Of a DNA stretch of 36,492 nucleotides, positions 4,797-36,492 are shown piece after piece. Origin of the DNA: a virus. The stretch spans positions 1 through 36,492 of IMG/VR virus record IMGVR_UViG_3300034168_000727. One strand, written 5' to 3'. The position numbers and the translations under genes are program-made. The notes beneath the pieces are model-generated. The model saw only the letters and a program-made list of their open reading frames with translations. It was not told where the DNA came from and did no database searches. Positions within the stretch are counted from its first letter, which is position 1, and each line of letters opens with the position of its first letter.

Positions 4797-5753
4797 ATGG
4801 TATCTTCTACTACAATTCGCGGAGACATTGCACAGGCCGTTTACGAAGGCCGCTCCAACAAGCAAAACCTTTTCATCGGCGCAGAAGTGATGCCGATCTA
4901 CGTGGCCGATATTCGCTCGGGCGAGTATCTCAAAATCAATCTCGGTCAGAGCGAAGCGTTGAATGACGATGCCACCAAGATCGCCGCTGGAGCCGCCTAT
5001 CCCCGCGTGTCCCGCAAGTTTGTCTCCGACACATTTGCCACCACCGAATACGGTCTTGAGGAAGTTCTCCCTGACGCCACCCAGCGTGATCTCGCTCGTT
5101 TCCTGGACGTCGAAGTTGCGGTCGCCGACATGCTTCTCAGCCAAATTCAAATTGGCCACGAAGCTCGCGTCGCTGCTCTCACCTACGCAGCTAACGGCAT
5201 CACCGCTATCTCAGGCACCGGCGCAACTGCCGCCTACTCCGAAGCGAATATCACAACCTTTGATCTTCCTGCCGACGTTGCCGCTGGCAAGTTGGAGCTC
5301 GCCAAATACGGTGTGCTTCCCAACACGCTGGTTCTCTCGGCCACATTGTTTGAGCGTGTTCGCCGCTCGACCAAAGTTCAAAACCAAATGTTCGGCGTCG
5401 TCGCCACTAACAGCACTCGTTTGCTCTCCGAGCAAGAGGTCGCTCAGGCGGTCGGAGTCGATCAGGTTCTCGTCGGTCGTGCTCCTAAAAACAGCGCGAA
5501 AAAAGGTCAGAGCTACAGCGGATCGTTCATTTGGGGCGACAGCTACATCGCTCTCGGCTACGTGGCTGGTGGTGAGTTTGCCGCTGGCGGATTTGGCCGC
5601 TCGATCCTCTGGGGTGCCGACTCCCCAGTCCCTTTCGTGACTGAGACCTATCGCGACGAAGCTCGTCGTAGCAACGTTCTGCGCGTGCGTCAGCACGTTT
5701 CAGAGAAGGTTGTTGACGGCAGCTCCATCATTCGCATTACGACTGGTCTGTAG
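4797..5753 (+). CDS. Major capsid protein
   Basis: A 318-residue protein, the typical length of HK97-fold capsid proteins without a delta domain. It follows the protease-scaffold and decoration genes, the canonical place. Features seen: an N-terminal arm, a helix around RDLARFLDVEVAVADMLLSQ (the spine-helix region), an LPNTLVLSATLFERVR segment near residue 180, the DQVLVGRA motif and a C-terminal stretch RRSNVLRVRQHVSEKVVDG. These match the general pattern of capsid proteins in which a 'DxVLVGxA' strand precedes a hydrophobic domain and a final beta strand. The assignment is from pattern and synteny. The leader (CACCCACTACT) has no Shine-Dalgarno sequence. A strong terminator lies about 50 bp downstream. 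Confidence 0.9.
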   Translation: MVSSTTIRGDIAQAVYEGRSNKQNLFIGAEVMPIYVADIRSGEYLKINLGQSEALNDDATKIAAGAAYPRVSRKFVSDTFATTEYGLEEVLPDATQRDLARFLDVEVAVADMLLSQIQIGHEARVAALTYAANGITAISGTGATAAYSEANITTFDLPADVAAGKLELAKYGVLPNTLVLSATLFERVRRSTKVQNQMFGVVATNSTRLLSEQEVAQAVGVDQVLVGRAPKNSAKKGQSYSGSFIWGDSYIALGYVAGGEFAAGGFGRSILWGADSPVPFVTETYRDEARRSNVLRVRQHVSEKVVDGSSIIRITTGL

Positions 5754-5801
5754 GCGCTGGCGTTGGTGTTTGTGGTATTGGTTGTTTTGGTTGTTCATAC
5801 C

Positions 5802-5834
5802 AAAAACCCACCCTTGAAAAAGGGTGGGTTTTTT
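5802..5834 (+). terminator. Rho-independent terminator after the capsid gene
   Basis: A perfect 14-bp stem (5802-5815 with 5820-5833), core CCCACCC/GGGTGGG flanked by A:T pairs, closed by a GAAA tetraloop (5816-5819) and running into a T6 tract. It ends the head-gene transcript and would limit read-through into the glycosyltransferase cassette. The flanking A and T tracts would also allow it to work on the opposite strand, although no gene is seen there. Confidence 0.93.
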
Positions 5835-5838
5835 GTTA

Positions 5839-5844
5839 TTGACA
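5839..5844 (+). promoter_or_regulatory. TTGACA element just after the terminator, before the glycosyltransferase cassette
   Basis: TTGACA starts 5 bp after the T-run of the capsid terminator and 17 nt before the ATG at 5862. A new transcript must begin near here if the terminator is efficient. No -10-like hexamer lies at 16-18 bp spacing before the start codon, so a plain sigma-70 reading is not supported. Confidence 0.45.
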
Positions 5845-5861
5845 TCACCACCCAAGCAGAC

Positions 5862-7532
5862 ATGAACCAAAAAAACCGCCTTGTCGCAGGCATGATTTGC
5901 GGCAACGAAGAAGAACGTATCGAGCGATGCGTTAAGTCCCTGCAAAAAGTATGCGATGAAATTGTTATCATTCGCGCCGTGGGATCACTGCAACCAGACG
6001 AGACGAAAAGCATCGCTAAAGGGCTCGGGTGCTACACCGGCGAGTATCTCAACTCGCCACTGTGTCGGCATTGGCCGCATCTCGATGACTTCGCCGCTGC
6101 GCGAAATATGGCATTTGAGAAAGCCTACGATCTGGCGAGCGAGAACGGTTGGGTTACATGGGCGGACTGCGACGACGTGCTCAAAGACAACATGGTGGAG
6201 CCAACGCTTAAGGCGCTACGAGACTGCCCGCCTGAGTGCGACTGGATCCTAAGCGACTACGTTATCCCAGAGCAGAACAAGCGCGCTCCCCGGGAGCGGT
6301 TTTTCCGTTATCACACCGGATGGTGGTGGCGCGCTGTGCATGAGAACGTCCACCCAACGAAAACGATCAAAATCCACATGCGCAGAGATGTTGAAATCCA
6401 CCACATGCCGCCGCTCGGTCAACGCAAAAGCAACGATCGCAACCAACGGATCTTGGAGTGGCAAGATCAATTCGCGCCGCACTGGAAATTCTACCTGCAC
6501 TACGAAAAGATGATCACCAACCAACGCGATCTCTCGCTGCGCTACGGCGCCGAAGCATTAGCGATGAAGGGACTCGACGGCGTGCATAAATACGAAACGC
6601 TCATGAATATGAGCAACATGACGGATGGAGACTCCGCGCTCCGCTTTGCGCAAGCCGCCCGCAAGCTCGATCCTGAACGCCGCGAAGCCGTCGCGCTTGA
6701 GGCTTCGATCCTGCTGGACGCAGGCAAGCCGGCCGAGTCGCTGGCGTTACTTGATGAGATGGATAAAATCCCAGTGCCGGCATTTACGCAGTGGACGCAC
6801 AAGGCCGAGTATTATGGTGGTAAAGCCAAGCAGCTCCGAGCTTGGGCGCTTAGAATGGCAGGTAAAAAGGAAGAAGCATTCAAGCTCGAAATGCAGGTGC
6901 TCGACGCAGCACCGCGTCCCCGCATCTCGTTGCTGCACGCTACGCGTGGGAGGCCGCTGCAGGCCGCGCAAAACATGAACCTGTGGCTCACTCGCGCAAG
7001 CAAGCCTGAGCGCGTGGAGCACATCTTCGCGGTCGATTCTGACGACGAGTCTGCAGCACTGCTGCAACGATTCGCGGGTGTTTGCCAACAACCGGACGGT
7101 TTTTCTGTCGGCGCTTGGAACCTGGCAGCCCAGCACAGCACCGGAGATATTCTTGTGCAGTTTTCTGATGACTTTGAATGCCCACCAGGGTGGGACGACA
7201 TGCTCGAAAGCCGCCTAGACATTTCGAAGGAAAAAGTGCTACATATTTCCGACGGCCACCGAACCGACGAGTTGCTGGCGATGGTTATCTGCACGCGGAA
7301 ATATTACAAAGCACATGGCCTATTTAATCCTCAATTCCGAAACCAATACAGCGACGCAGAGTTCACCGTTCGTGCCGCGAAGGTTGGCGCGATTGTTGAT
7401 GCTCGCGATATTGTTTGCGTCCATCACAACCCGGCTTTCGAGAATATTCCGACCGACGAAACCTATGCGAGAGTCAATGACCCGAAAGAATCAACCCGAG
7501 CAAAAGAAATATTTGAAAAACTAACAAAATGA
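5862..7532 (+). CDS. Two-domain GT-A glycosyltransferase with a TPR-like middle
   Basis: A 556-residue protein. The N-terminal GT2-like domain opens with LVAGMICGNEEERIERCVKS and has a DxD-type motif in WADCDD near residues 101-106. Residues about 240-360 look like TPR-type helical repeats. A second GT-A-like domain begins near residue 364 with ISLLHATRGRP and has FSDDF near 434-438. The reading frame stays open upstream to 5763, but that extension runs through the terminator, so the ATG at 5862 was chosen. Substrate and acceptor are unknown. Its place right after the capsid gene suggests virion-protein glycosylation, though host surface-glycan modification cannot be excluded. The second domain resembles the N-terminus of the next gene product. 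Confidence 0.82.
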   Translation: MNQKNRLVAGMICGNEEERIERCVKSLQKVCDEIVIIRAVGSLQPDETKSIAKGLGCYTGEYLNSPLCRHWPHLDDFAAARNMAFEKAYDLASENGWVTWADCDDVLKDNMVEPTLKALRDCPPECDWILSDYVIPEQNKRAPRERFFRYHTGWWWRAVHENVHPTKTIKIHMRRDVEIHHMPPLGQRKSNDRNQRILEWQDQFAPHWKFYLHYEKMITNQRDLSLRYGAEALAMKGLDGVHKYETLMNMSNMTDGDSALRFAQAARKLDPERREAVALEASILLDAGKPAESLALLDEMDKIPVPAFTQWTHKAEYYGGKAKQLRAWALRMAGKKEEAFKLEMQVLDAAPRPRISLLHATRGRPLQAAQNMNLWLTRASKPERVEHIFAVDSDDESAALLQRFAGVCQQPDGFSVGAWNLAAQHSTGDILVQFSDDFECPPGWDDMLESRLDISKEKVLHISDGHRTDELLAMVICTRKYYKAHGLFNPQFRNQYSDAEFTVRAAKVGAIVDARDIVCVHHNPAFENIPTDETYARVNDPKESTRAKEIFEKLTK

Positions 7533-8698
7533 AAATCCTAAGCCTACTCCACGCCACCCGTGGCACGCCCGAACGCGCACTTGAAACACGCAAGGTTTGG
7601 CTTGACCGAGCCGACGATGCCGATCATGTCGAGCATATTTTCGGGATTCAAAGCGACGATCTTGAAAGCATCAAGGCATTCGCTGCAGCGAAGGTCTACT
7701 GGTCGTGCACGACCCCACCGCCAGCGTGGGCATCGTCGAGCGTGGCAAACTGGAATATCTGCGCGGAGTTTTCGACCGGGCATATCTTGGTCGTGATTGC
7801 CGACGATCTCACACCACCGCAGGGATGGGATACCAAGCTGCGCAAGCTTCCAGACCCCGAAACAAAATGGGCTTGCTACGTTCCCGACTCCCTGCGGCAA
7901 GACGGACTCATTTGCCATCCCGTGATCTCCCGGGCGCTCTACAACAAGCGCGGGTATGTCTTCCATCCTGATTTTTTCGGAGTTTACTGCGACAACGATT
8001 TCAATGTGCGCACGCAGCTAGAAGCACCGATTTATTCCGTGCGCGATCTGGAGTGGCAGCACGACCACCCAACCAACGGCTCGAGAGAAAGCGATAGCAT
8101 CGTGGAGCACCAGAACAGCGAGACGGCATACGCTTACGGTGGAGCGAAGTTTATGCAGAAGTGGCCGTTGAATAATATCTTTCAGCGCAGTCGCGGGATT
8201 TGCGGAGACATCAACGAGCATATGTTACGGCTGGCTCAGTTGGCGCGGCAGTGCGAGCACGTCACCGAGTTCGGCGTGCGCACCGGTATGAGCACGTATT
8301 CGTTTCTGCACGGACTCTCCGACAAACCTAGAGCGATTCTTCGGAGCTACGATCTGCACGATTTCTTCAACGTTTTCGCTATCCGGAACCAACTCGAAAT
8401 CGACTGGACGTTTCGGCAGGGTAGCACGCTAGAAGCTGATGTCATCGAGCCAACCGACCTGCTCTTCATCGACACGCTGCACACTTACGCGCAGGTCAAA
8501 GGCGAGCTAGAGCGGCACGGCAACCAGGCGAGAAAATATATCGCGTTTCACGACACGGTGGCTTTCGGGAGTCTTGGAGAAGACAACGGCACCGGCATTA
8601 ATTTGGCAATTCAAGAATGGATGCGGGACAACGAGCATTGGCGGGTCTTGGAGCATCACGAAAACTGCAACGGTCTAACAATTCTTGCGAGGAAATGA
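7529..8698 (+). CDS. Glycosyltransferase fused to a class I methyltransferase
   Basis: A 389-residue protein overlapping the previous gene by 4 nt (ATGA). Residues 1-205 form a GT-A-like domain that opens with ILSLLHATRGTPERAL and has VEHIFGIQSDD, close to the second domain of the upstream protein. Residues about 220-389 look like a class I SAM methyltransferase of the Methyltransf_24/CmcI type: motif I VTEFGVRTGMSTYSF near 245 and LLFIDTLHTYAQVKGEL near 310, then IAFHDT. One chain could thus transfer a sugar and methylate it or its acceptor, which is inference from the fusion. The product is unknown. Translational coupling on both sides makes it the middle of a three-gene cassette. Confidence 0.82.
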   Translation: MKILSLLHATRGTPERALETRKVWLDRADDADHVEHIFGIQSDDLESIKAFAAAKVYWSCTTPPPAWASSSVANWNICAEFSTGHILVVIADDLTPPQGWDTKLRKLPDPETKWACYVPDSLRQDGLICHPVISRALYNKRGYVFHPDFFGVYCDNDFNVRTQLEAPIYSVRDLEWQHDHPTNGSRESDSIVEHQNSETAYAYGGAKFMQKWPLNNIFQRSRGICGDINEHMLRLAQLARQCEHVTEFGVRTGMSTYSFLHGLSDKPRAILRSYDLHDFFNVFAIRNQLEIDWTFRQGSTLEADVIEPTDLLFIDTLHTYAQVKGELERHGNQARKYIAFHDTVAFGSLGEDNGTGINLAIQEWMRDNEHWRVLEHHENCNGLTILARK

Positions 8699-9381
8699 TC
8701 ACGCATTCAGTTTGGATCGGCCCGAAACTCGGGCTAATGGAAAAGCTCACGCTCATGCTCCTTGAGCGCAGCGGCAACAAACCCACCTTGTGGGTCAAGG
8801 GTAAGGTTGAAGGCGTCCCGGACGGCGTGAAGGTCGAGCAACTACCGAAAGACGTGCTCGCTCCCGTAGGGTTCGCAGGCAATCCACACGATTACATCCC
8901 TAATGGCGGCATCGGGAGCTTTGCGCATTGGAGCGATTACTTTGCGATGGAAACGCTCTACCGCCACGGTGGCGTGTGGGTGCAGATGGATTGCGCCGTG
9001 ACGGTGAAACTTGACCTAGAAGACTACACATTTTCTCCGTGGCTCTCGAGTATTTCGCCAGTCGTCATGCGGATCCCCGAAGGCAGTGCGTTTGCGATTG
9101 ATCTTGCAACCAAGCTTCGCGATATGCTCGCCGACGGCATGGCTGGTCGCGACTGGCACGAAGCCATGCTGCTCATCCACGCGGGCCTGCAGCGCCACGG
9201 CATCGCTTACAAGACGCTGCCTAATTACTGCGACTGCGGTGGCCTGACCTTCTCACCCTACTCGCACCCAATCACCGCAGACGTGATTCACTGGAGCAAT
9301 GCCACCCACAACCAGAGCAAGGAGAAGCCGATCAAGGGCAGCGAATACGAGCGGCTTTGCAAAGAGTGCGGCCTTATTTGA
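8695..9381 (+). CDS. GT32-like sugar transferase (DXD-type)
   Basis: A 228-residue protein. The ATG at 8695 overlaps the previous stop (ATGA) with GAGGAA just upstream; an in-frame ATG at 8617 would add 26 residues lying inside the methyltransferase gene and was rejected. It opens with ITHSVWIGP, like the IPKIIHxIW start of Gly_transf_sug/OCH1 proteins. The core WSDYFAMETLYRHGGVWVQM (residues 79-98) matches the family's 'SDxxRxxxLxxxGGxYxDxD' block, with D81 and D99, although the usual second Asp of the DXD is replaced (MDCAV), which may affect metal binding. It is the last gene of the cassette and probably acts on the same glycan as its neighbours. Confidence 0.8.
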   Translation: MITHSVWIGPKLGLMEKLTLMLLERSGNKPTLWVKGKVEGVPDGVKVEQLPKDVLAPVGFAGNPHDYIPNGGIGSFAHWSDYFAMETLYRHGGVWVQMDCAVTVKLDLEDYTFSPWLSSISPVVMRIPEGSAFAIDLATKLRDMLADGMAGRDWHEAMLLIHAGLQRHGIAYKTLPNYCDCGGLTFSPYSHPITADVIHWSNATHNQSKEKPIKGSEYERLCKECGLI

Positions 9382-29005: not shown

Positions 29006-29501
29006 CGCCATCGAGCGGCAGGCCAAGCAACAATACGCTCTCGCCCAGAGCCTAGCCGCTGATGCCAAGGTCTCGGCTCGTCAGGCCATCCTAGCCATGG
29101 CGGACTGCGGCCAGATGCTGCTCATGGGACGCGAGCATGTGCGCGGTGGCAAGACTGAGTGGATAGCCAGCCTAGGCATCCCACTACCCGACGCAGACAA
29201 GGCGGTGTTCTTGGCACGCAACAGAGATCAGTTGGTGCTCGATCTGTGGCCGCAGGACGTCGCCAAAGTCGGTGCTCAGTTCGTCGGCTTGCTACCCCCA
29301 CCCGGCTCATCTAACCGCAGCACGGACGATCCTGAGCGCAGCACGGGTGCCGCCAACCATTGGTTGGCTTACGCTGGTAAACTCAACCGGGGGCTGAATG
29401 ATCTGTTCGGCTCAAGGCCCGTGGCGGCGTGGCGTGAAGACGAGCGGACGAATGTGAAGTTGGCGTTGAAACCGATCGTCGAACTTTACGAAACTTTGTG
29501 A
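28968..29501 (+). CDS. DUF3102-like hypothetical protein
   Basis: A 177-residue protein whose start lies within the end of the HTH gene. Residues about 30-72 (AILAMADCGQMLLMGREHVR, then GGKTEWIASLGI) follow the 'CGxxLxxAKxxxxHGxWxxWL' pattern of DUF3102 proteins. These are often near replication or plasmid genes. The C-terminal part has no recognised domain. It is the last gene before the AT-rich gap. Confidence 0.65.
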   Translation: MEIVEHNTTLTLDAIERQAKQQYALAQSLAADAKVSARQAILAMADCGQMLLMGREHVRGGKTEWIASLGIPLPDADKAVFLARNRDQLVLDLWPQDVAKVGAQFVGLLPPPGSSNRSTDDPERSTGAANHWLAYAGKLNRGLNDLFGSRPVAAWREDERTNVKLALKPIVELYETL

Positions 29502-29725
29502 AATATTTTTTCGAAAAATAAAAAAATAAAAAATGAAAAACAATTTTTTAAAAAATAAAAAAATAAAAAGTTTTTTAAAATTTAAAATTTGAAAATTTTA
29601 AAAAATGGAAAAAAATATTTTTCAAAATTTTAGAAGACTACTAAACAAAGTCAAAGCTTGGGGGTAAACGAACTACTGCAACACTCCTATGAATAGGCAA
29701 AAATTGCCGAGTTATAAAAAACATC
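29502..29725. promoter_or_regulatory. 224-bp AT-rich non-coding region (possible origin, cos/pac or promoter)
   Basis: Positions 29502-29640 contain only about nine G/C bases by eye, with several A- and T-runs and AAAATTT-type palindromes. A palindrome GGCAAAAATTGCC lies at 29696-29708, followed by TTATAAAAAA and the ParB ATG. The stretch divides the replication genes from the ParB/terminase genes. An origin, a late promoter region or an AT-rich packaging-site flank are all possible; nothing in the sequence decides between them. A 19-codon open frame at 29533 is meaningless low-complexity sequence. Confidence 0.6.
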
Positions 29726-30514
29726 ATGAAAATCGAACAAATACCGACAGAAAAACTTATCCCCTACGCTCGCAACGCCAAGAAGCACGACGCTGCGCAG
29801 GTTTCAAAACTTGCCGGTAGCATTCGCGAGTTTGGTTTCAACAACCCGGTCTTGATCGACAAGGACAACGGTATCATCGCCGGGCACGGGCGCGTGATGG
29901 CCGCGCAAAAGTTGGAGCTAAAGGACGTGCCCTGCATCCGGCTCGGCCACCTTACCGACACGCAGCGCCGAGCCTACATCCTCGCGGACAATCGGCTGGC
30001 AGAGATCGGCGGTGGCTGGGATGAAGAATTGCTAAAGCTCGAAATCAAGGACATCGACTGGGGCGAGCTGAAAGAAATTGGCATTGATGATTTTGATTTC
30101 GGAGAGATTGATTTCGGGGGACAAGATCAATCCGAGGGCGAGAATAATCCGGCCGAAGACACTAATTATTCTCGAAAAATTGAAGCTCCAATTTATGAGC
30201 CGCAGGGGGCAAAGCCATCTTTGACGGAATTGTTTGATGACAGCAAGACACTCCGGCTATGTAAAAAAATCGAGGAAAGCGTCATTCCGAAAGAAGAAAA
30301 AAACTTTTTAATTGCCGCAGCGCAAAGGCACACGGTTTTTCGATTCGACAAGATTGCCGAGTATTATGCGCAGAGCGATCATGCCTTGCAAGGGTTGTTC
30401 GAGGATTCCGCGGTTGTAATTATCGACTTCGACAAGGCGATTGAGGATGGATTTGTGGAAATGACGGAGAAAATTCGTGAGGCATATATGAAGGATTATC
30501 CTAATGAAGAATGA
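29726..30514 (+). CDS. ParB-domain protein with conserved C-terminal extension
   Basis: A 262-residue protein. Residues 1-95 are a ParB/sulfiredoxin-like domain: IPYARNAKKHDAAQVSKLAG, then NNPVLIDKDNGIIAGHGRVM with the GHGR box (residues 53-56). An acidic linker (about 110-145) precedes a C-terminal domain (residues 155-262) ending VVIIDFDKAIEDGFVEMTEK, which I recall with ParB domains in phages. In phages ParB-type domains often accompany DNA-modification enzymes. The neighbouring gene overlaps by 11 nt and encodes a TET-associated-type glycosyltransferase, so a joint DNA-modification role is plausible. It may alternatively be a CTP-binding partition-like or nuclease protein. Confidence 0.78.
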   Translation: MKIEQIPTEKLIPYARNAKKHDAAQVSKLAGSIREFGFNNPVLIDKDNGIIAGHGRVMAAQKLELKDVPCIRLGHLTDTQRRAYILADNRLAEIGGGWDEELLKLEIKDIDWGELKEIGIDDFDFGEIDFGGQDQSEGENNPAEDTNYSRKIEAPIYEPQGAKPSLTELFDDSKTLRLCKKIEESVIPKEEKNFLIAAAQRHTVFRFDKIAEYYAQSDHALQGLFEDSAVVIIDFDKAIEDGFVEMTEKIREAYMKDYPNEE

Positions 30515-31373
30515 ATTTGTGGTTTTAATTTTGACGCACGGAAGGCCGGATCGAATTTACACTTATGATTCCCTGCGCAAACATGGATATACCGGAACAA
30601 TTCGCATTGTGATAGATAACGAAGACAAGACAGCAGAAGAATATCACCGCAGATTCCCTGGAGAGGTGGTTGTTTTTGATAAGGACGAATGGGCTTCAAA
30701 GACCGACGCCATGGATAACTTCCCGCACAAACGGGCGATTGTTTATGCTCGCAATGCAGCATTTCAGATTGCACGCGATTTGGGTTACGAATGGTTTTTT
30801 CAATTTGATGATGATTATACGGATTGGCTTTTTAAGTTTGACGGGAGATTGAGATTTAAAACCAAAGGCATTTTGAGTCTTGATGAAGTTTTTAATTCCT
30901 TTATGCATTTTGCAAAAAAAACATCAGCGTTTGTATCTCCAGCTCAAGGCGGGGATTTCATAGGGGGCGGCGGAAGTATTTACACAAAAAATTTAGGCAC
31001 AAAACGAAAATGTATGAATGGATGGCTTTGCAAAACATCTGCATTGCTATCTTTTTGCGGTCACCTAAATGAAGATTGCACGGCGTATGTTTTGAACGGA
31101 TTACGAGGAGTTATTTTTATGCAAACCTATCAGGCTTGTATAACTCAAAAGCCAACTCAAGCAACAGCGGGAGGCATGACTGAAGCCTACAAAGAAAGCG
31201 GAACTTATCAAAAAAGTTTTTATACGGTGATGGCAGCGCCTTCCTGCACAAAGATAAACACCGTGACTCCTAGTGGCGGCAGATTGCATCATTCAATTAA
31301 ATGGAATAATTGCGCGCCTAAAATTCTGCGCGAATCAATAAAGAAAAATGCCCAAGAAAACACCACCGCCTGA
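30504..31373 (+). CDS. TET-associated-type glycosyltransferase (DNA hypermodification family)
   Basis: A 289-residue protein. The sequence pattern LILTHGRPDRIYTYDSLRK (residues 8-26), then TIRIVIDNEDKTAEEYHRRF, then RAIVYARNAAFQIARDLGY, and FFQFDDDYTDW with the triple Asp at 102-104 matches what I know of phage TET-associated glycosyltransferases (TAGT family). These glucosylate hydroxylated bases in DNA. No TET/JBP oxygenase or hydroxymethyl-nucleotide synthase was seen here, so the acceptor base is unknown. It is AT-richer than the terminase genes. It overlaps both the ParB gene (11 nt) and the small terminase gene (26 nt). A role on another substrate cannot be excluded. Confidence 0.75.
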   Translation: MKNEFVVLILTHGRPDRIYTYDSLRKHGYTGTIRIVIDNEDKTAEEYHRRFPGEVVVFDKDEWASKTDAMDNFPHKRAIVYARNAAFQIARDLGYEWFFQFDDDYTDWLFKFDGRLRFKTKGILSLDEVFNSFMHFAKKTSAFVSPAQGGDFIGGGGSIYTKNLGTKRKCMNGWLCKTSALLSFCGHLNEDCTAYVLNGLRGVIFMQTYQACITQKPTQATAGGMTEAYKESGTYQKSFYTVMAAPSCTKINTVTPSGGRLHHSIKWNNCAPKILRESIKKNAQENTTA

Positions 31374-31926
31374 ACCTGCATCCGATCTCCAGGGGAAGAT
31401 CCGAGAGGCTGAGTTCAAAAACATCCTTCAAAAGCTAAAGGATGGCAAAACTCTAACAGCGCGAGAGTCAAAGATCGCGGCAGAGTTTGCGGCAAAGCGG
31501 GACGGCAAGGGGTTGACGCAAGCAGAGCTTGCGGCGATGTGGGGGATGACGCAGCCCAACATTTACAAGATGGTTAAGCAGGGGATGCCGATGGACAGCA
31601 TCGAAGTGGCGACGGCGTGGAGAAAGCAATTTCTTGAAGAGCGCACGCCTGCCAGCTACAACGAAGCCCGCACCCGCAAGGCGCTGCTTGAGTGCGACAA
31701 ATTGGATATGCAGCTCGCCATCCTTCGCGGCGACTACGAAGAGAAGGCAAAGATGCGCGAGTCCGGCATCCGCATCGGCGCTATATTCTCCGCCAAGCTC
31801 GCCGCACTCGTCAACGACGCCAGCGGAGCGTTGGCGGGCTTGGGCGAAGCCGAACTGCGAAAGAAGTTACACGAGCGCACGCAGCAGATATTGAGTGAGA
31901 TCAGAGACGAACTTGAGAAGCTATGA
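31348..31926 (+). CDS. Terminase small subunit (Nu1-like)
   Basis: A 192-residue protein. Residues about 53-80 (GLTQAELAAMWGMTQPNIYK) form an HTH that would bind the packaging site. The following helices (TRKALLECDKLDMQLAILRG) show the 'LExxxLxxQIAxLRGEY' pattern of Nu1/terminase small subunits. The C-terminus is a long helix (RTQQILSEIRDELEKL) for contact with the large subunit. The start overlaps the glycosyltransferase gene by 26 nt, so the packaging genes are coupled to the modification pair. Confidence 0.82.
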   Translation: MPKKTPPPEPASDLQGKIREAEFKNILQKLKDGKTLTARESKIAAEFAAKRDGKGLTQAELAAMWGMTQPNIYKMVKQGMPMDSIEVATAWRKQFLEERTPASYNEARTRKALLECDKLDMQLAILRGDYEEKAKMRESGIRIGAIFSAKLAALVNDASGALAGLGEAELRKKLHERTQQILSEIRDELEKL

Positions 31927-32156
31927 CATACCAAACCCGAACCTTGAAGATCGCCGTCGGCGTGAAAGGCGAACCGATCTTCCATGTAGGCACAACCGAG
32001 ATCGAGATCGTTGATGAAGCTGCAGGCGAGTTCTTAAAAATTACGCAATCGCCTGATGATGCCGAGTTGGGCGTGATCAAGATCGATCCGCACGAATGGC
32101 CGATGCTGAAGGCTGCAATCGATCGCATGATGAAGGAGTCTCGCAGCCATGACTAA
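31923..32156 (+). CDS. Small conserved-type protein near terminase
   Basis: A 77-residue protein overlapping the small terminase by 4 nt. It reads TRTLKIAVGVKGEPIFHVGT, then EIEIVDEAAGEFLKITQ and IKIDPHEWPMLKAAIDRMM. The 'GEPIF ... DEAxGEF ... IDPxEWPxLxxAIxRM' pattern is familiar to me from unnamed proteins beside phage terminase genes. Function unknown. Confidence 0.65.
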   Translation: MTYQTRTLKIAVGVKGEPIFHVGTTEIEIVDEAAGEFLKITQSPDDAELGVIKIDPHEWPMLKAAIDRMMKESRSHD

Positions 32157-32364
32157 ATCTTCACTCTGGGCGATTTACTGCCGCAAGAATCCGAAATTCG
32201 CCGAAGATGGCGAAGTGACGCTGACGGCGCGTGGCCTGCGCAAGATGTTTGATACGACATGGGACACGGCCTTCTACGACGGCGAAGACGAGCCTTGTTC
32301 ATCAAAAGAGCAGCCTTCACCATCAGTTGAAACCTTAATGAAAATGTTTGGGATGAAACCATGA
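32149..32364 (+). CDS. Small hypothetical protein before the large terminase
   Basis: A 71-residue protein overlapping its upstream neighbour by 8 nt and the terminase start by 4 nt. The body (SSLWAIYCRKNPKFAEDGEV, then GLRKMFDTTWDTAF) is not a known domain. The C-terminus is SETLMKMFG-like (VETLMKMFGMKP). The three-gene coupling to terminase suggests a packaging accessory, which is inference. Confidence 0.6.
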   Translation: MTKSSLWAIYCRKNPKFAEDGEVTLTARGLRKMFDTTWDTAFYDGEDEPCSSKEQPSPSVETLMKMFGMKP

Positions 32365-34094
32365 ACCCGCTCGCCACAGGTATCTGCGAAGGCATCAAGC
32401 TCGCCTACGACGGGACGATCCTAGACTGGGCCGAAGCACACGTCAAATTTCCGAACTCGGATCGGGCGTCGCGCTTCGACCGCACCGTGGCGCCGTGGAT
32501 GAATGACGTTTTGCTGGCGGTAACGGACGACGAAGCGACGCAGGTGTTTTTGCGCGCCAGCACCGGAGCGGGCAAGACCACGATGATGGAGACGCTCGCG
32601 TGTTTTATCGTTGCGCAAAAGCCTGGCCCAACGCTCTTCGTGGGCCAAACCGATGATATGGTTAAAGACTGGACAGAGTCGCGACTGCTCCCGATCTTTC
32701 GAGACTGCGAGCCGGTGCGAGCGTTGTTCCCGGAAGATCGACACGCGCTTAGAAAGACGACGATATTCTTTCCCCACATGGTTCTTTTCGCGGGCGGCGC
32801 GAACATGACGAACCTTCAAGAAAAATCCATGCGCTATTGCATCGGCGATGAAGTCTGGCGCTGGAAGGATGGGATGATCAAAGAACTTAAAGCCCGACAT
32901 CACGACAGATGGAACCGCAAGACGTTTTTGTGCTCGCAGGGCGGCAGCAGCACGGACGAGATGGAGCACGAGTGGGACAGCGGGACTCGAGAAGTGTGGG
33001 GCTGGACGTGCCCGCAGTGCAGCACTTGGCAGCGATACACTTTTGACGCGATCAAATTCGAGCAACCTAAGAACGCCGCAGGCGAAATGCTCTGGGATCA
33101 GGTGCAGGACTCTGTATTTATGGAGTGCGAGCACTGCAAGGCGCAGTATCGCGACACCGCCGCGACTCGTCGCAACCTTTCAAACACTGCAACCTTTCGC
33201 TCGCTCAACCCGAACCCGGTGCGCGGCCATCGCTCATTCGAAGTCCCTGCCTACGCGGTGTGGTGGATCCCGTGGTTCTCGATTGTTAAAGAGTGGATCG
33301 AAGCGAACGAAGCGAAAAGCAACGGCAACTTGGAGCCGTTGAAACAATTTATCCAAAAACGCAAAGCACAGACTTGGCAAGAGGAGATCATCTCCGACTT
33401 GCCGGAGATAACGGCAGGCGACTACGCGAAAAGCGAATTTATTGACGGCCAGAAGATCGACGGTGAGCACCGGCGCTTTTTGTGCGTTGATAAACAGCGC
33501 GACCACTTCTGGTATGTTATCCGTGCCTTCCGAATGGACGGGAGCTCGATGCTGCTGGCGGAGGGAAAAATCTTGACTTGGGAAACCATCGAGTCCCTTG
33601 CGCTGCAATACAACATCCCGAACCGGGCGGTTGTTATCGACGCAGGCTACGACACGCCGCTCGTCTACGAACGCTGCGCACGCAATGGCTGGACCGCATC
33701 GCACGGCTCGGGGCAGGATGGATTTTCGCATACGGAGTCGAACGGGCGTAGAGTAAAAAAGTTTGTCTCGAAAATAGAAACAGCCGTGGCTGGGAGCGAT
33801 AATTTGCGGGCGTTTTATTTCTTTCACAGCAACGAAAAAATAAAAGACAAGTTGGCGGCGATGCGGCAACCGGATGCCGTGCCGAAATGGGAGACGCCAC
33901 GGGACGCGAGTAACGACTACCGAGCGCAGATGGTGGCCGAGATGAAAAAGGACATCGTGAACTCAAAAACCAAACAGGTTGAGACTCGATGGGTGCGTAT
34001 CGGCGGCAGGCCCAACCACCTTTTCGACTGCGAATGCATCGCCTTGGCGTCGGCAATGTTGGCGGGCGTCTTGCCTATCGGCTCGGAGAGCTAG
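32361..34094 (+). CDS. Terminase large subunit (GpA-like)
   Basis: A 577-residue protein. The ATPase domain has Walker A ASTGAGKT (residues 66-73) and Walker B YCIGDEVW with D163 and E164. Between the ATPase and nuclease halves a zinc-binding pair WTCPQCSTW / MECEHCKAQY is seen, typical of the lambda GpA family. The C-terminal nuclease has VVIDAGYDT (around residue 428) and a final FDCECIALA. It translocates DNA into the prohead and cuts it. Length is close to lambda gpA (641). The GpA family plus Nu1-like small subunit makes cos packaging likely, but no cos site could be located. Confidence 0.92.
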   Translation: MNPLATGICEGIKLAYDGTILDWAEAHVKFPNSDRASRFDRTVAPWMNDVLLAVTDDEATQVFLRASTGAGKTTMMETLACFIVAQKPGPTLFVGQTDDMVKDWTESRLLPIFRDCEPVRALFPEDRHALRKTTIFFPHMVLFAGGANMTNLQEKSMRYCIGDEVWRWKDGMIKELKARHHDRWNRKTFLCSQGGSSTDEMEHEWDSGTREVWGWTCPQCSTWQRYTFDAIKFEQPKNAAGEMLWDQVQDSVFMECEHCKAQYRDTAATRRNLSNTATFRSLNPNPVRGHRSFEVPAYAVWWIPWFSIVKEWIEANEAKSNGNLEPLKQFIQKRKAQTWQEEIISDLPEITAGDYAKSEFIDGQKIDGEHRRFLCVDKQRDHFWYVIRAFRMDGSSMLLAEGKILTWETIESLALQYNIPNRAVVIDAGYDTPLVYERCARNGWTASHGSGQDGFSHTESNGRRVKKFVSKIETAVAGSDNLRAFYFFHSNEKIKDKLAAMRQPDAVPKWETPRDASNDYRAQMVAEMKKDIVNSKTKQVETRWVRIGGRPNHLFDCECIALASAMLAGVLPIGSES

Positions 34095-34103
34095 TGCATT
34101 GAT

Positions 34104-34109
34104 TTGACA
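34104..34109 (+). promoter_or_regulatory. TTGACA element 14 nt before the gpW-like gene
   Basis: Lies in the 29-bp gap after the terminase stop, so it is not produced by a stop codon. The leader that follows (CACAACCACCCAAACA) closely matches the one at 5844-5861 (ATCACCACCCAAGCAGAC). This pair is the best evidence that the motif and the A/C-rich leader belong together. Confidence 0.45.
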
Positions 34110-34123
34110 CAACCACCCAAACA

Positions 34124-34372
34124 ATGGCACTTTCAAAAACCTTCTTCGGCTTACCGCTCGCCACCCTGCAGGGATTGCAAGCAAAATATATCGCCTGTCT
34201 CGAAGCGATCGCTGTGGCGGGATCGAGCTACAGCATCGCAGGGCGCTCGTTCACTCGTGCCAACTTGAGCGAAGTCGCGCAGATGATAAAAGAACTCCAG
34301 GCGGCCATAGAGAACTCCACCGGTGCGAGAGTTAGGCGCACGGTGACGGCGTTCCCAACCCAGCTTCCCTAA
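34124..34372 (+). CDS. Head-tail connector protein (gpW-like)
   Basis: An 82-residue protein between terminase and portal, exactly where lambda W lies. The first half (PLATLQGLQAKYIACLEAIA) is a helix, the middle has a beta hairpin (SSYSIAGRSFTRAN), and a second helix (LSEVAQMIKELQAAIENS) follows: the gpW fold order. It should plug the portal after packaging and provide the site for FII. The residual C-terminus is short. Confidence 0.78.
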   Translation: MALSKTFFGLPLATLQGLQAKYIACLEAIAVAGSSYSIAGRSFTRANLSEVAQMIKELQAAIENSTGARVRRTVTAFPTQLP

Positions 34373-34378
34373 AAAAAC

Positions 34379-36454
34379 ATGACACAAGACCTCATTACCA
34401 AGACGCTTGCAGTGTTCTCACCGCAGGCAGCGATGTCTCGGATGGTTTCGCAAGCGAAGTTGCGAAACTTCGGGCGGTTCGACTCGGCGCTCGACAGCAC
34501 GAAGCGCGGCATCTCTCGCAATATCAGCGGAGCCGAAGACACCGCAGGCACCGCAGAGCGATACAAACTCATCCGCGCCGCGCGGGATCTCGCCGACAAT
34601 TTCCCCCCGGTTCGTTCGTTGCTTCTCAAATTTTCCACCTACGTCTCCGGGCGGCTGGCCTACCAAGCGCGCACGGGCGACCGCGATATCGACGAGCAGG
34701 TCGAACGGTATTGGCGCGAGTGGTGCAGGGACTGCGATTTTCTGCGTCGGCACGATTTCGTCACGCTTCTCCAGCTCGCCGTTATGGCAATGCTGCGAGA
34801 TGGCGACTGCGGCTTTGCCATCGTTCGCGACGGTGAAGATTTGCGCTTGCAATCCGTCGAAGCCGACCGCATCGGTTCGCCCTACAATCGAACGATTGAC
34901 TCGGATGTTTACATCGGCGGCATCAATTTGGACGAGTATGGCAGGCCGGTGAGCTATCAGGTTTTTGTTCGAAACATTTCGAACCAATACATCGAGCCAA
35001 CCGATATTCCTGCGAGCGAATTTATTCACCTGTTCGACGCAACGCGGCTCGACGAATACCGTGGTCGCTCGGCATTCGCCACGGCGTTGAATGCAACTCG
35101 GGACTTGCAAGAAGCACTCAAAGCCGAAATCTCTGCCATCAAATTTGCGAGCTACCAGACCGGCGTGATCGTCTCCGAGAATGGTGGCGCTGATGCCAGC
35201 GACTACTTCTCGTCAAGCGGGGTGAACGATCTCGGCCAGCGTGCGAAGTTGGAGAACGTCGATCCCGGCACGATGAACTACCTGTCTCCAGGAGAGAAAA
35301 TCGAGATGTTCAAGTCCGATCGTCCCGGCGGAGCGTTCGGAGAGTTTGTTCGTCTCGTTCAGTCTCACATCTGCATGAGTGTCGGCTTGCCGTATGGCTT
35401 TGCTTTTGATGCAGACAAGAGTGGCCCGATGGCGAGGATGGAAGCTGAGATGGCGGAGCGCACGTTTGCACGGTGGCGTAGGTTGCTGGAGTCTCAATTT
35501 CTGGATCGAATTAAAAATATCGTGCTGCTCGACGCGGCTTCTCGCGGATTGATTCCAGATAGCGAGTATTTGCTAGATGGCCGCTGGGGGTGGCCAAAGA
35601 AGGCCAGTATCGACTACGGTCGCGAAGCTCGCGCCGACATCGACCTGTGGAAGGCGGGCCTGAAAACCGCTGCGCAAATTTATACCGAGCAGGGTGAAGA
35701 CTACGAAGAAGCATTTCGATCAAGAGCGAAGGAAGCGTCGCTTATCGTGGAGCTTGCCGATGCCTACAAAGTCCCGCCGCAATACATCTCGGATTCGGTG
35801 CCGATGCCGAACAGCAGGGAAGCGCAACCGGCAGGAGCGCCAGAAATAGAAATTCCAGAAGCAGCGCAAGCCGCCCCACCCGCACCCGCACTAGCGCAGG
35901 CGTCGTTTGAAGAGTCGTATAAGCCGACACAGGGCATGATTGCCGAAGCCAAGAAGGGTCTGGAGTGGAGAGCGAAATACGGTCGCGGCGGAACGAATAT
36001 CGGGGTTGCTCGTGCTCGCGACATCTCCAACGGCAAGAACCTGTCGGAAGATACCGTTAAAAGAATGAACTCGTTTTTTGCACGGCATGAAGTTGATAAA
36101 AAGGGTGAGGGTTTTCAACAAGGCGAAGATGGGTTCCCCTCCGCCGGGCGTATTGCTTGGGCGCTGTGGGGCGGAGACGCTGGGCAGGTTTGGGCGGCAG
36201 ATAAAGCCAAGGGAATGAAGCTGGCGACTCGCCCAGAGCGCAAGCACTTGGCCATCGCCATACGAGACGCGCACGGCCACTTTCAGGGCATCGGGCATCA
36301 AACGGATCTCGTTATGCCGTCGCCAGAGCGGCGCGAAGAAGAAGAAGATTTTATAGAGCGGTGCATGGTGCATCCAACGATGGAGAGCGAATACAACGAC
36401 ATCGACCAGCGGCTCGCCGTCTGCAACACTCAATGGAAGGGAATAACTAAATGA
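34379..36454 (+). CDS. Portal protein (gpB-like) with a fused C-terminal domain
   Basis: A 691-residue protein. Residues about 1-500 match the lambda gpB/SPP1-type portal: YKLIRAARDLADNFPPVRSL at the start, then FVTLLQLAVMAMLRDGDCGF, SEFIHLFDATRLDEYRGRSA, and ICMSVGLPYGFAFDADKSG. After an Ala/Pro-rich linker (about 480-512), a separate domain GLEWRAKYGRGGTNIGVARA appears, followed by IAWALWGGDAGQVWA. I know this from free-standing phage proteins or protease fusions. The last 40 residues (ERREEEEDFIERCMVHPTME onward) match another short motif of that type. The portal dodecamer is the DNA entry point; the extension probably adds a head assembly function. The gene runs across the contig junction. 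Confidence 0.88.
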   Translation: MTQDLITKTLAVFSPQAAMSRMVSQAKLRNFGRFDSALDSTKRGISRNISGAEDTAGTAERYKLIRAARDLADNFPPVRSLLLKFSTYVSGRLAYQARTGDRDIDEQVERYWREWCRDCDFLRRHDFVTLLQLAVMAMLRDGDCGFAIVRDGEDLRLQSVEADRIGSPYNRTIDSDVYIGGINLDEYGRPVSYQVFVRNISNQYIEPTDIPASEFIHLFDATRLDEYRGRSAFATALNATRDLQEALKAEISAIKFASYQTGVIVSENGGADASDYFSSSGVNDLGQRAKLENVDPGTMNYLSPGEKIEMFKSDRPGGAFGEFVRLVQSHICMSVGLPYGFAFDADKSGPMARMEAEMAERTFARWRRLLESQFLDRIKNIVLLDAASRGLIPDSEYLLDGRWGWPKKASIDYGREARADIDLWKAGLKTAAQIYTEQGEDYEEAFRSRAKEASLIVELADAYKVPPQYISDSVPMPNSREAQPAGAPEIEIPEAAQAAPPAPALAQASFEESYKPTQGMIAEAKKGLEWRAKYGRGGTNIGVARARDISNGKNLSEDTVKRMNSFFARHEVDKKGEGFQQGEDGFPSAGRIAWALWGGDAGQVWAADKAKGMKLATRPERKHLAIAIRDAHGHFQGIGHQTDLVMPSPERREEEEDFIERCMVHPTMESEYNDIDQRLAVCNTQWKGITK

Positions 36455-36492
36455 TCGCACAAGGCATCGCACTCGAAGCAAAGCGCCAATTT
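36366..36492. repeat. Right copy of the 127-bp exact terminal direct repeat
   Basis: Identical to positions 1-127. It carries the end of the portal gene and the first 14 codons of the gene at 86-499. See the left copy for the circularity argument. Confidence 0.95.

Follow-up and report, generated by a model that had tools for sequence, protein, structure and literature searches.

A ParB-TAD-TAGT cassette in the packaging operon of a tailed phage and its probable role in the glycosylation of phage DNA

The locus and its genomic setting

What does a phage glycosyltransferase of the TAGT type modify when it is encoded together with a ParB-domain protein, next to the terminase genes, in a genome with no recognizable base-hydroxylating enzyme? 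The question is raised by a stretch of viral DNA of 36,492 bases (hereafter the window), which is one whole IMG/VR virus record. Positions 1-127 are repeated exactly at 36366-36492, and these identical contig ends therefore define a closed, complete genome of 36,365 bases. The repeat rules out that the locus is an artefact of a fragment, and since it closes the genome the absence of an enzyme cannot be blamed on a missing end. The record is grouped with records classed as linear, despite its closing terminal repeat. Gene order is typical of a tailed phage: head, tail, endolysin, recombination (resolvase, Sak4, exonuclease and SSB), HNH, Rep, DnaB-type helicase, ParB-TAGT, small terminase (TerS), large terminase (TerL) and portal.

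All genes of the locus lie on the plus strand. The ParB-domain protein (262 residues, 29726-30514) and the glycosyltransferase (289 residues, 30504-31373) are encoded by open reading frames that overlap by 11 nt (30504-30514), as an initial annotation of this DNA had described. That annotation had also coupled the pair to the small terminase gene (31348-31926; PHROG 57, 7.6e-8), and the glycosyltransferase frame indeed runs 26 nt into it (31348-31373), over a protein start, MPKK..DLQGKIREAEFKN, that is conserved in relatives. The GpA-type large terminase (32361-34094; PF05876, 3e-30; PF20454, 1.9e-17) and the portal protein (34379-36454; PF05136, 3.4e-52) follow.

About a dozen sister contigs start at a homologous GGT[TA]A located 64-87 bases before parB, and in phages c5 and LL-Ku the annotated cos covers bases 1-11 and ORF1 starts 79 bases further on, at base 90. 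Probably, then, the left genome end opens with this cassette, as part of the packaging operon. From these relatives we infer a cos-like end in the window at 29661-29670 (GGGTAAAC; unstranded), about 60 bases upstream of parB. A very AT-rich intergenic stretch (29502-29700) lies ahead of parB and adjoins this putative end. The cassette is dispensable, because it is partly deleted in some Lactobacillus phages: LL-Ku has lost the ParB gene, and most of both genes is deleted in Ld25A.

The glycosyltransferase belongs to a separate TAGT clade

The 289-residue protein matches the Pfam family TAGT (PF20691) with an E value of 1.5e-26 and 94 bits (cut-off 27.5), and PHROG 842, labelled 'beta-glucosyl-HMC-alpha-glucosyltransferase', at 5e-56. 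The phylogenetic tree has long branches and separates the clade of this protein, here named TAGT-I, with support 99/98 from lineages II and III and from the TET-linked TAGT of Nonlabens phage P12024L.

An AlphaFold2 model built from 64 relatives has a mean pLDDT of 90.5 and adopts a GT-A fold. Foldseek comparisons with solved structures returned GT-A enzymes, among them TarP, SunS and AvpGT, at TM-scores that are modest (about 0.4-0.5), TarP being the top match (TM about 0.4), while a sequence search against the PDB gave baseplate hits at chance level only. Among the nearest solved folds are enzymes whose substrates are wall teichoic acid, peptides and nucleosides, and the acceptor of TAGT-I therefore cannot be read from its fold. 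The catalytic residues are conserved: an acidic metal-binding DDD motif occupies residues 102-104, and D103, D104, N189, D191, R260, H262 and H263 are invariant in 64/64 sequences. Comparison with two relatives gave dN/dS values of about 0.07-0.11, with synonymous sites near saturation, and the enzyme is under strong purifying selection.

A two-module ParB protein and a constant partner domain

The 262-residue protein scores 26.2 bits with Pfam ParB_N, just below the cut-off of 26.3. The profile of its family finds solved ParB/Noc proteins at E 6e-9, its N-domain matches PHROG 620/498, and the AlphaFold2 model of this domain resembles the Noc/ParB fold. The protein is composed of two modules that the initial annotation had not separated. 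The ParB N-domain (residues 1-130, 29726-30115), a putative targeting module that is exchangeable, is common to other modification enzymes. The helical C-terminal domain (about residues 145-262, 30158-30514), here called TAD, is associated with TAGT; neither Pfam nor, by sequence or by fold, the PDB contains a match to it, and within this domain the model is confident for no more than about residues 161-215. Partition ParB proteins of plasmids and chromosomes carry an HTH after ParB_N and have a ParA partner. Neither was found here (the ParA search covering the scanned ORFs), and TAD fills the C-terminus, so a true partition ParB was rejected.

TAD is the constant partner of TAGT-I. It is encoded immediately upstream of 132 of the 149 TAGT-I genes with enough upstream sequence, and 135 of 142 TAD-TAGT pairs overlap or abut, mostly by 8 or 11 nt. 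ParB is present in 121/149 TAGT-I loci and is fused to TAD in 109/149, and TerL lies at most 4.5 kb downstream of TAGT-I in 88/125. Every one of the 28 records in the phage collection that contain TAD carries TAGT-I as well. The gene order of the window is kept in complete phages of E. coli, Lactobacillus, Nocardia, Porphyromonas and Haloarcula. Eight viral loci (L006-L012 and Vibrio phage pv27) carry a stand-alone TAD gene of 130-144 residues, free of ParB, just upstream of TAGT; in pv27 the TAD-TAGT pair is far from the terminase.

Exchange of modification enzymes behind a conserved ParB domain

Scanning with the ParB protein revealed loci with an identity of up to 99% over the first 99-130 residues and a different remainder. 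These sister phages have N6/N4-methyltransferases, C5-methyltransferases, Mom, TET or other TAGTs in the same slot. A census of the best 80 of 151 loci, a sample biased to close ParB relatives, counted 32 N6/N4-methyltransferases, 10 TAGT-I, 10 Mom, 9 C5-methyltransferases, 6 TAGT-II, 3 TAGT-III, 4 GNAT/ABC-like proteins and 2 TET, together with 2 loci without family assignment and 2 that were cut. The clearest cassette swap is provided by L041, which matches the window at 81% of nucleotides over 29301-30027 and at 88-93% over 31347-34300, with no match between; its counterpart to window positions 30028-31346 is a PF01555 methyltransferase, joined to the same ParB in one protein. This exchange for methyltransferases, Mom and TET constitutes the strongest argument that the target is DNA. 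It also bears out the DNA-modification context that the initial annotation had proposed for the pair, while weakening its suggestion that the acceptor might not be DNA at all; the enzymes that occupy the same spot in sister phages had escaped it.

Two of the exchanged cassettes pair ParB with TET (L046, 680-2196; L051, 556-2363) and are followed by an FkbM-type methyltransferase in L046 and by an unrecognized 292-aa protein in L051. The GNAT/ABC-like protein found in the slot of L053, L060, L062 and L071 belongs to PHROG 11143, which has no annotated function, and perhaps carries out an undescribed acyl modification of DNA.

A TAGT clade without recognizable hydroxylases

Profile searches of the closed window genome for TET/JBP (PF12851), thymidylate synthase (PF00303), C5-methyltransferase (PF00145) and N6/N4-methyltransferase (PF01555) were empty, with positive controls that matched; no hidden member of these four families came to light. 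Family scans of the larger ORFs found no nucleotide kinase, and Pfam and PHROG scans of the same ORFs found no alpha- or beta-glucosyltransferase that could add a first sugar; many of the small window ORFs matched no family. The absences of TET/JBP and thymidylate-synthase-like enzyme noted in the initial annotation thus hold, as does that of a kinase among the larger ORFs.

What had been missed is that such absence is normal for the clade. PF12851 matched in 0/56 TAGT-I records (the window and 55 others), with L046, L051, Stinger and P12024L all matching as positive controls; these TET-free records include complete phages of E. coli, Lactobacillus, Nocardia, Porphyromonas, Vibrio and Haloarcula. 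Neither PF00145 nor PF00303 was found among the TAGT-I records tested, with the exception of one protein of the thymidylate synthase family in pv27. This protein carries a PFN motif, the mark of an ordinary thymidylate synthase and not of a dCMP hydroxymethylase. The lack of a recognizable hydroxylase is therefore the rule in the TAGT-I clade.

A proposed mechanism and its competitors

We propose, with a probability of about 0.7, that the locus is an exchangeable cassette for the protective glycosylation of phage DNA by TAGT-I, under the direction of ParB-TAD and ahead of packaging. The ParB N-domain would bring the complex onto phage DNA and TAD would dock the glycosyltransferase, which could then move a sugar from a host nucleotide-sugar onto a base of replicated phage DNA just before it is packaged. 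The sugar may block restriction or other defences that sense DNA. The slot beside cos and the terminase would accept various modification enzymes, the phage of the window having the sugar version. That DNA is the acceptor of TAGT-I is suggested by the exchange for known DNA-modifying enzymes. Counting against this proposal are the dispensability of the pair and the arrangement in pv27, with its TAD-TAGT pair unfused to ParB and away from the terminase. A further difficulty is that the TAGT targets known so far require a base that is hydroxymethylated or already glucosylated. Tentatively, TAGT-I held by ParB-TAD may put its sugar directly on an unmodified base in one step, with no prior hydroxylation, although we hold this version to be doubtful.

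The nearest competitor shares DNA as the target, so that its likelihood, somewhat short of even, overlaps with that of our proposal: an unrecognized enzyme of the phage or the host would have to hydroxylate a base, or prepare it in some other way, before it could be glycosylated. All characterized DNA glycosylation of the TAGT type takes place on hydroxymethylated or already glucosylated bases (PMC13216743), P12024L encodes TET directly before a related TAGT, and the unmatched small ORFs of the window could supply candidates. Against a prepared base stand the lack of TET throughout the 56 TAGT-I records, the lack of C5-methyltransferases in those tested and the PFN motif of their single thymidylate synthase family member. 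The hosts, moreover, span bacteria and archaea, for which no modified base is known in common, and this also weakens the host-made base that the initial annotation had offered as an option. It is improbable that modification is confined to the nearby packaging site, with ParB-TAD serving to regulate genome cutting or packaging and not to mask the whole genome. The cassette adjoins the inferred cos end and the terminase, and ParB proteins load at specific sites; but no such site was identified, the pair of pv27 is distant from the terminase, and Mom and TET, which occupy the same slot, usually modify DNA widely.

Targets other than DNA are less probable, being hard to reconcile with the exchange pattern. 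A virion or packaging protein (terminase, portal or capsid) is an unlikely acceptor. Location in the terminase operon and overlap with terS would agree with it, as would the second glycosyltransferase cluster adjoining the major head protein, but DNA methyltransferases, Mom and TET take its place behind near-identical ParB domains, and the packaging proteins of phages with the pair are unrelated or very distant. We consider it very unlikely that the enzyme decorates the host envelope in seroconversion, like the prophage-encoded TarP. In favour of this are the first rank of TarP among the structural matches and the many prophages among the carriers, but TM-scores are just 0.4-0.5, the overlap with the ParB-TAD gene is conserved, the gene sits in the packaging operon, the slot is exchanged for DNA-modifying enzymes, and the TAGT-I family is also found in an archaeal virus and in phages of both Gram-positive and Gram-negative bacteria.

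The second cluster mentioned above spans 5763-9381, directly after the major head protein gene (4797-5753), and encodes three proteins, one with two GT2 domains, one of the glycosyltransferase/Methyltransf_24 type and one with a weak Gly_transf_sug match. Capsid glycosylation is a possible function.

Relation to known systems and significance

The TAGT of phage T6 adds a second glucose to glucosylated hmC, and TAGTs have the GT-A fold (PMC13216743). TAGT-I shares with this beta-glucosyl-HMC-alpha-glucosyltransferase the family PF20691, the fold and the phage origin. It differs in forming a separate clade (99/98) that lacks TET, hydroxymethylase and TS-like enzyme and that has a dedicated TAD partner and a ParB fusion. 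Diglucosylation of the T6 type needs a TS-family hydroxymethylase to produce hmC, and PF00303 is absent from the window. TET/JBP-TAGT cassettes such as that of P12024L likewise place a TAGT in a DNA-modification operon, but there TET lies directly upstream, it is absent in the window, and the TAGTs are only distantly related. The 2026 paper listed 288 of 753 phage genomes with TAGT homologues that lack an alpha- or beta-glucosyltransferase, and suggested potentially novel transferases (PMC13216743).

The closest architectural parallels are cassettes of ParB_N with a PF01555 methyltransferase, in which the same ParB domain (up to 96-97% identical) occupies the same place before terS; the window has TAD and a glycosyltransferase gene instead. 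Mycobacterium phage Stinger has the same order (ParB-TET-TerS-TerL, gp1-gp2-TerS-TerL), again with an overlapping pair by the terminase, but with an oxygenase (its TET match falling below the Pfam curated cut-off) where the window has a glycosyltransferase. ParBc proteins also accompany base-modification enzymes in the CmoX/CmoY carboxymethylcytosine systems, whose chemistry differs in using a carboxymethyl handle and an amide ligase (PMC12783734). In the window, ParB_N is coupled to a putative modification enzyme beside the terminase, the arrangement that defines ParB-guided phage modification cassettes.

In the literature searched, which did not include the 2013 survey of TET/JBP-TAGT systems that defined TAGTs or a PNAS paper of 2021, we found no description of a ParB-TAD-TAGT cassette, and nothing useful on the restriction sensitivity of HHTV-2 or c5. 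Our analysis ties one large clade of TAGTs to a partner domain, a putative ParB targeting module and a fixed slot of exchanged DNA-modifying enzymes. It also suggests a likely role for the ParBc domains that occur fused to phage DNA methyltransferases, whose function there has been described as unknown (PMC12783734). Should unmodified bases prove to be the acceptor, DNA glycosylation would gain a new type, and one-step transfer would represent a new DNA-modification chemistry common to bacterial and archaeal viruses. Isolated TAGT-I phages (c5, phi jlb1, HHTV-2, E. coli 666R9 and NTR1) offer virion DNA in which these predictions can be tested.

Accessory genes in related cassettes

Some relatives encode an extra gene between TAD and TAGT, either a histidine-phosphatase/cytidylyltransferase fusion, a SAM methyltransferase or a second TAGT, and such inserted genes may be ways of making or decorating the activated sugar. 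The fusion, encoded between ParB-TAD and TAGT in L144 (5013-6008) and L181-L183, is likely to make a sugar- or polyol-nucleotide. Tandem TAGT genes were seen in L011 (976-2517), L012, L196, L205, L217 and L233, one copy often being diverged, and L011 and L012 have tandem TAD-TAGT pairs; the products of such tandems could possibly build a disaccharide or form a heterodimer. Finally, TET-like proteins of mycobacteriophages (L102, 776-1744; PHROG 6059) are publicly labelled 'queuine tRNA-ribosyltransferase', while Pfam points to TET/JBP with a score below the cut-off.
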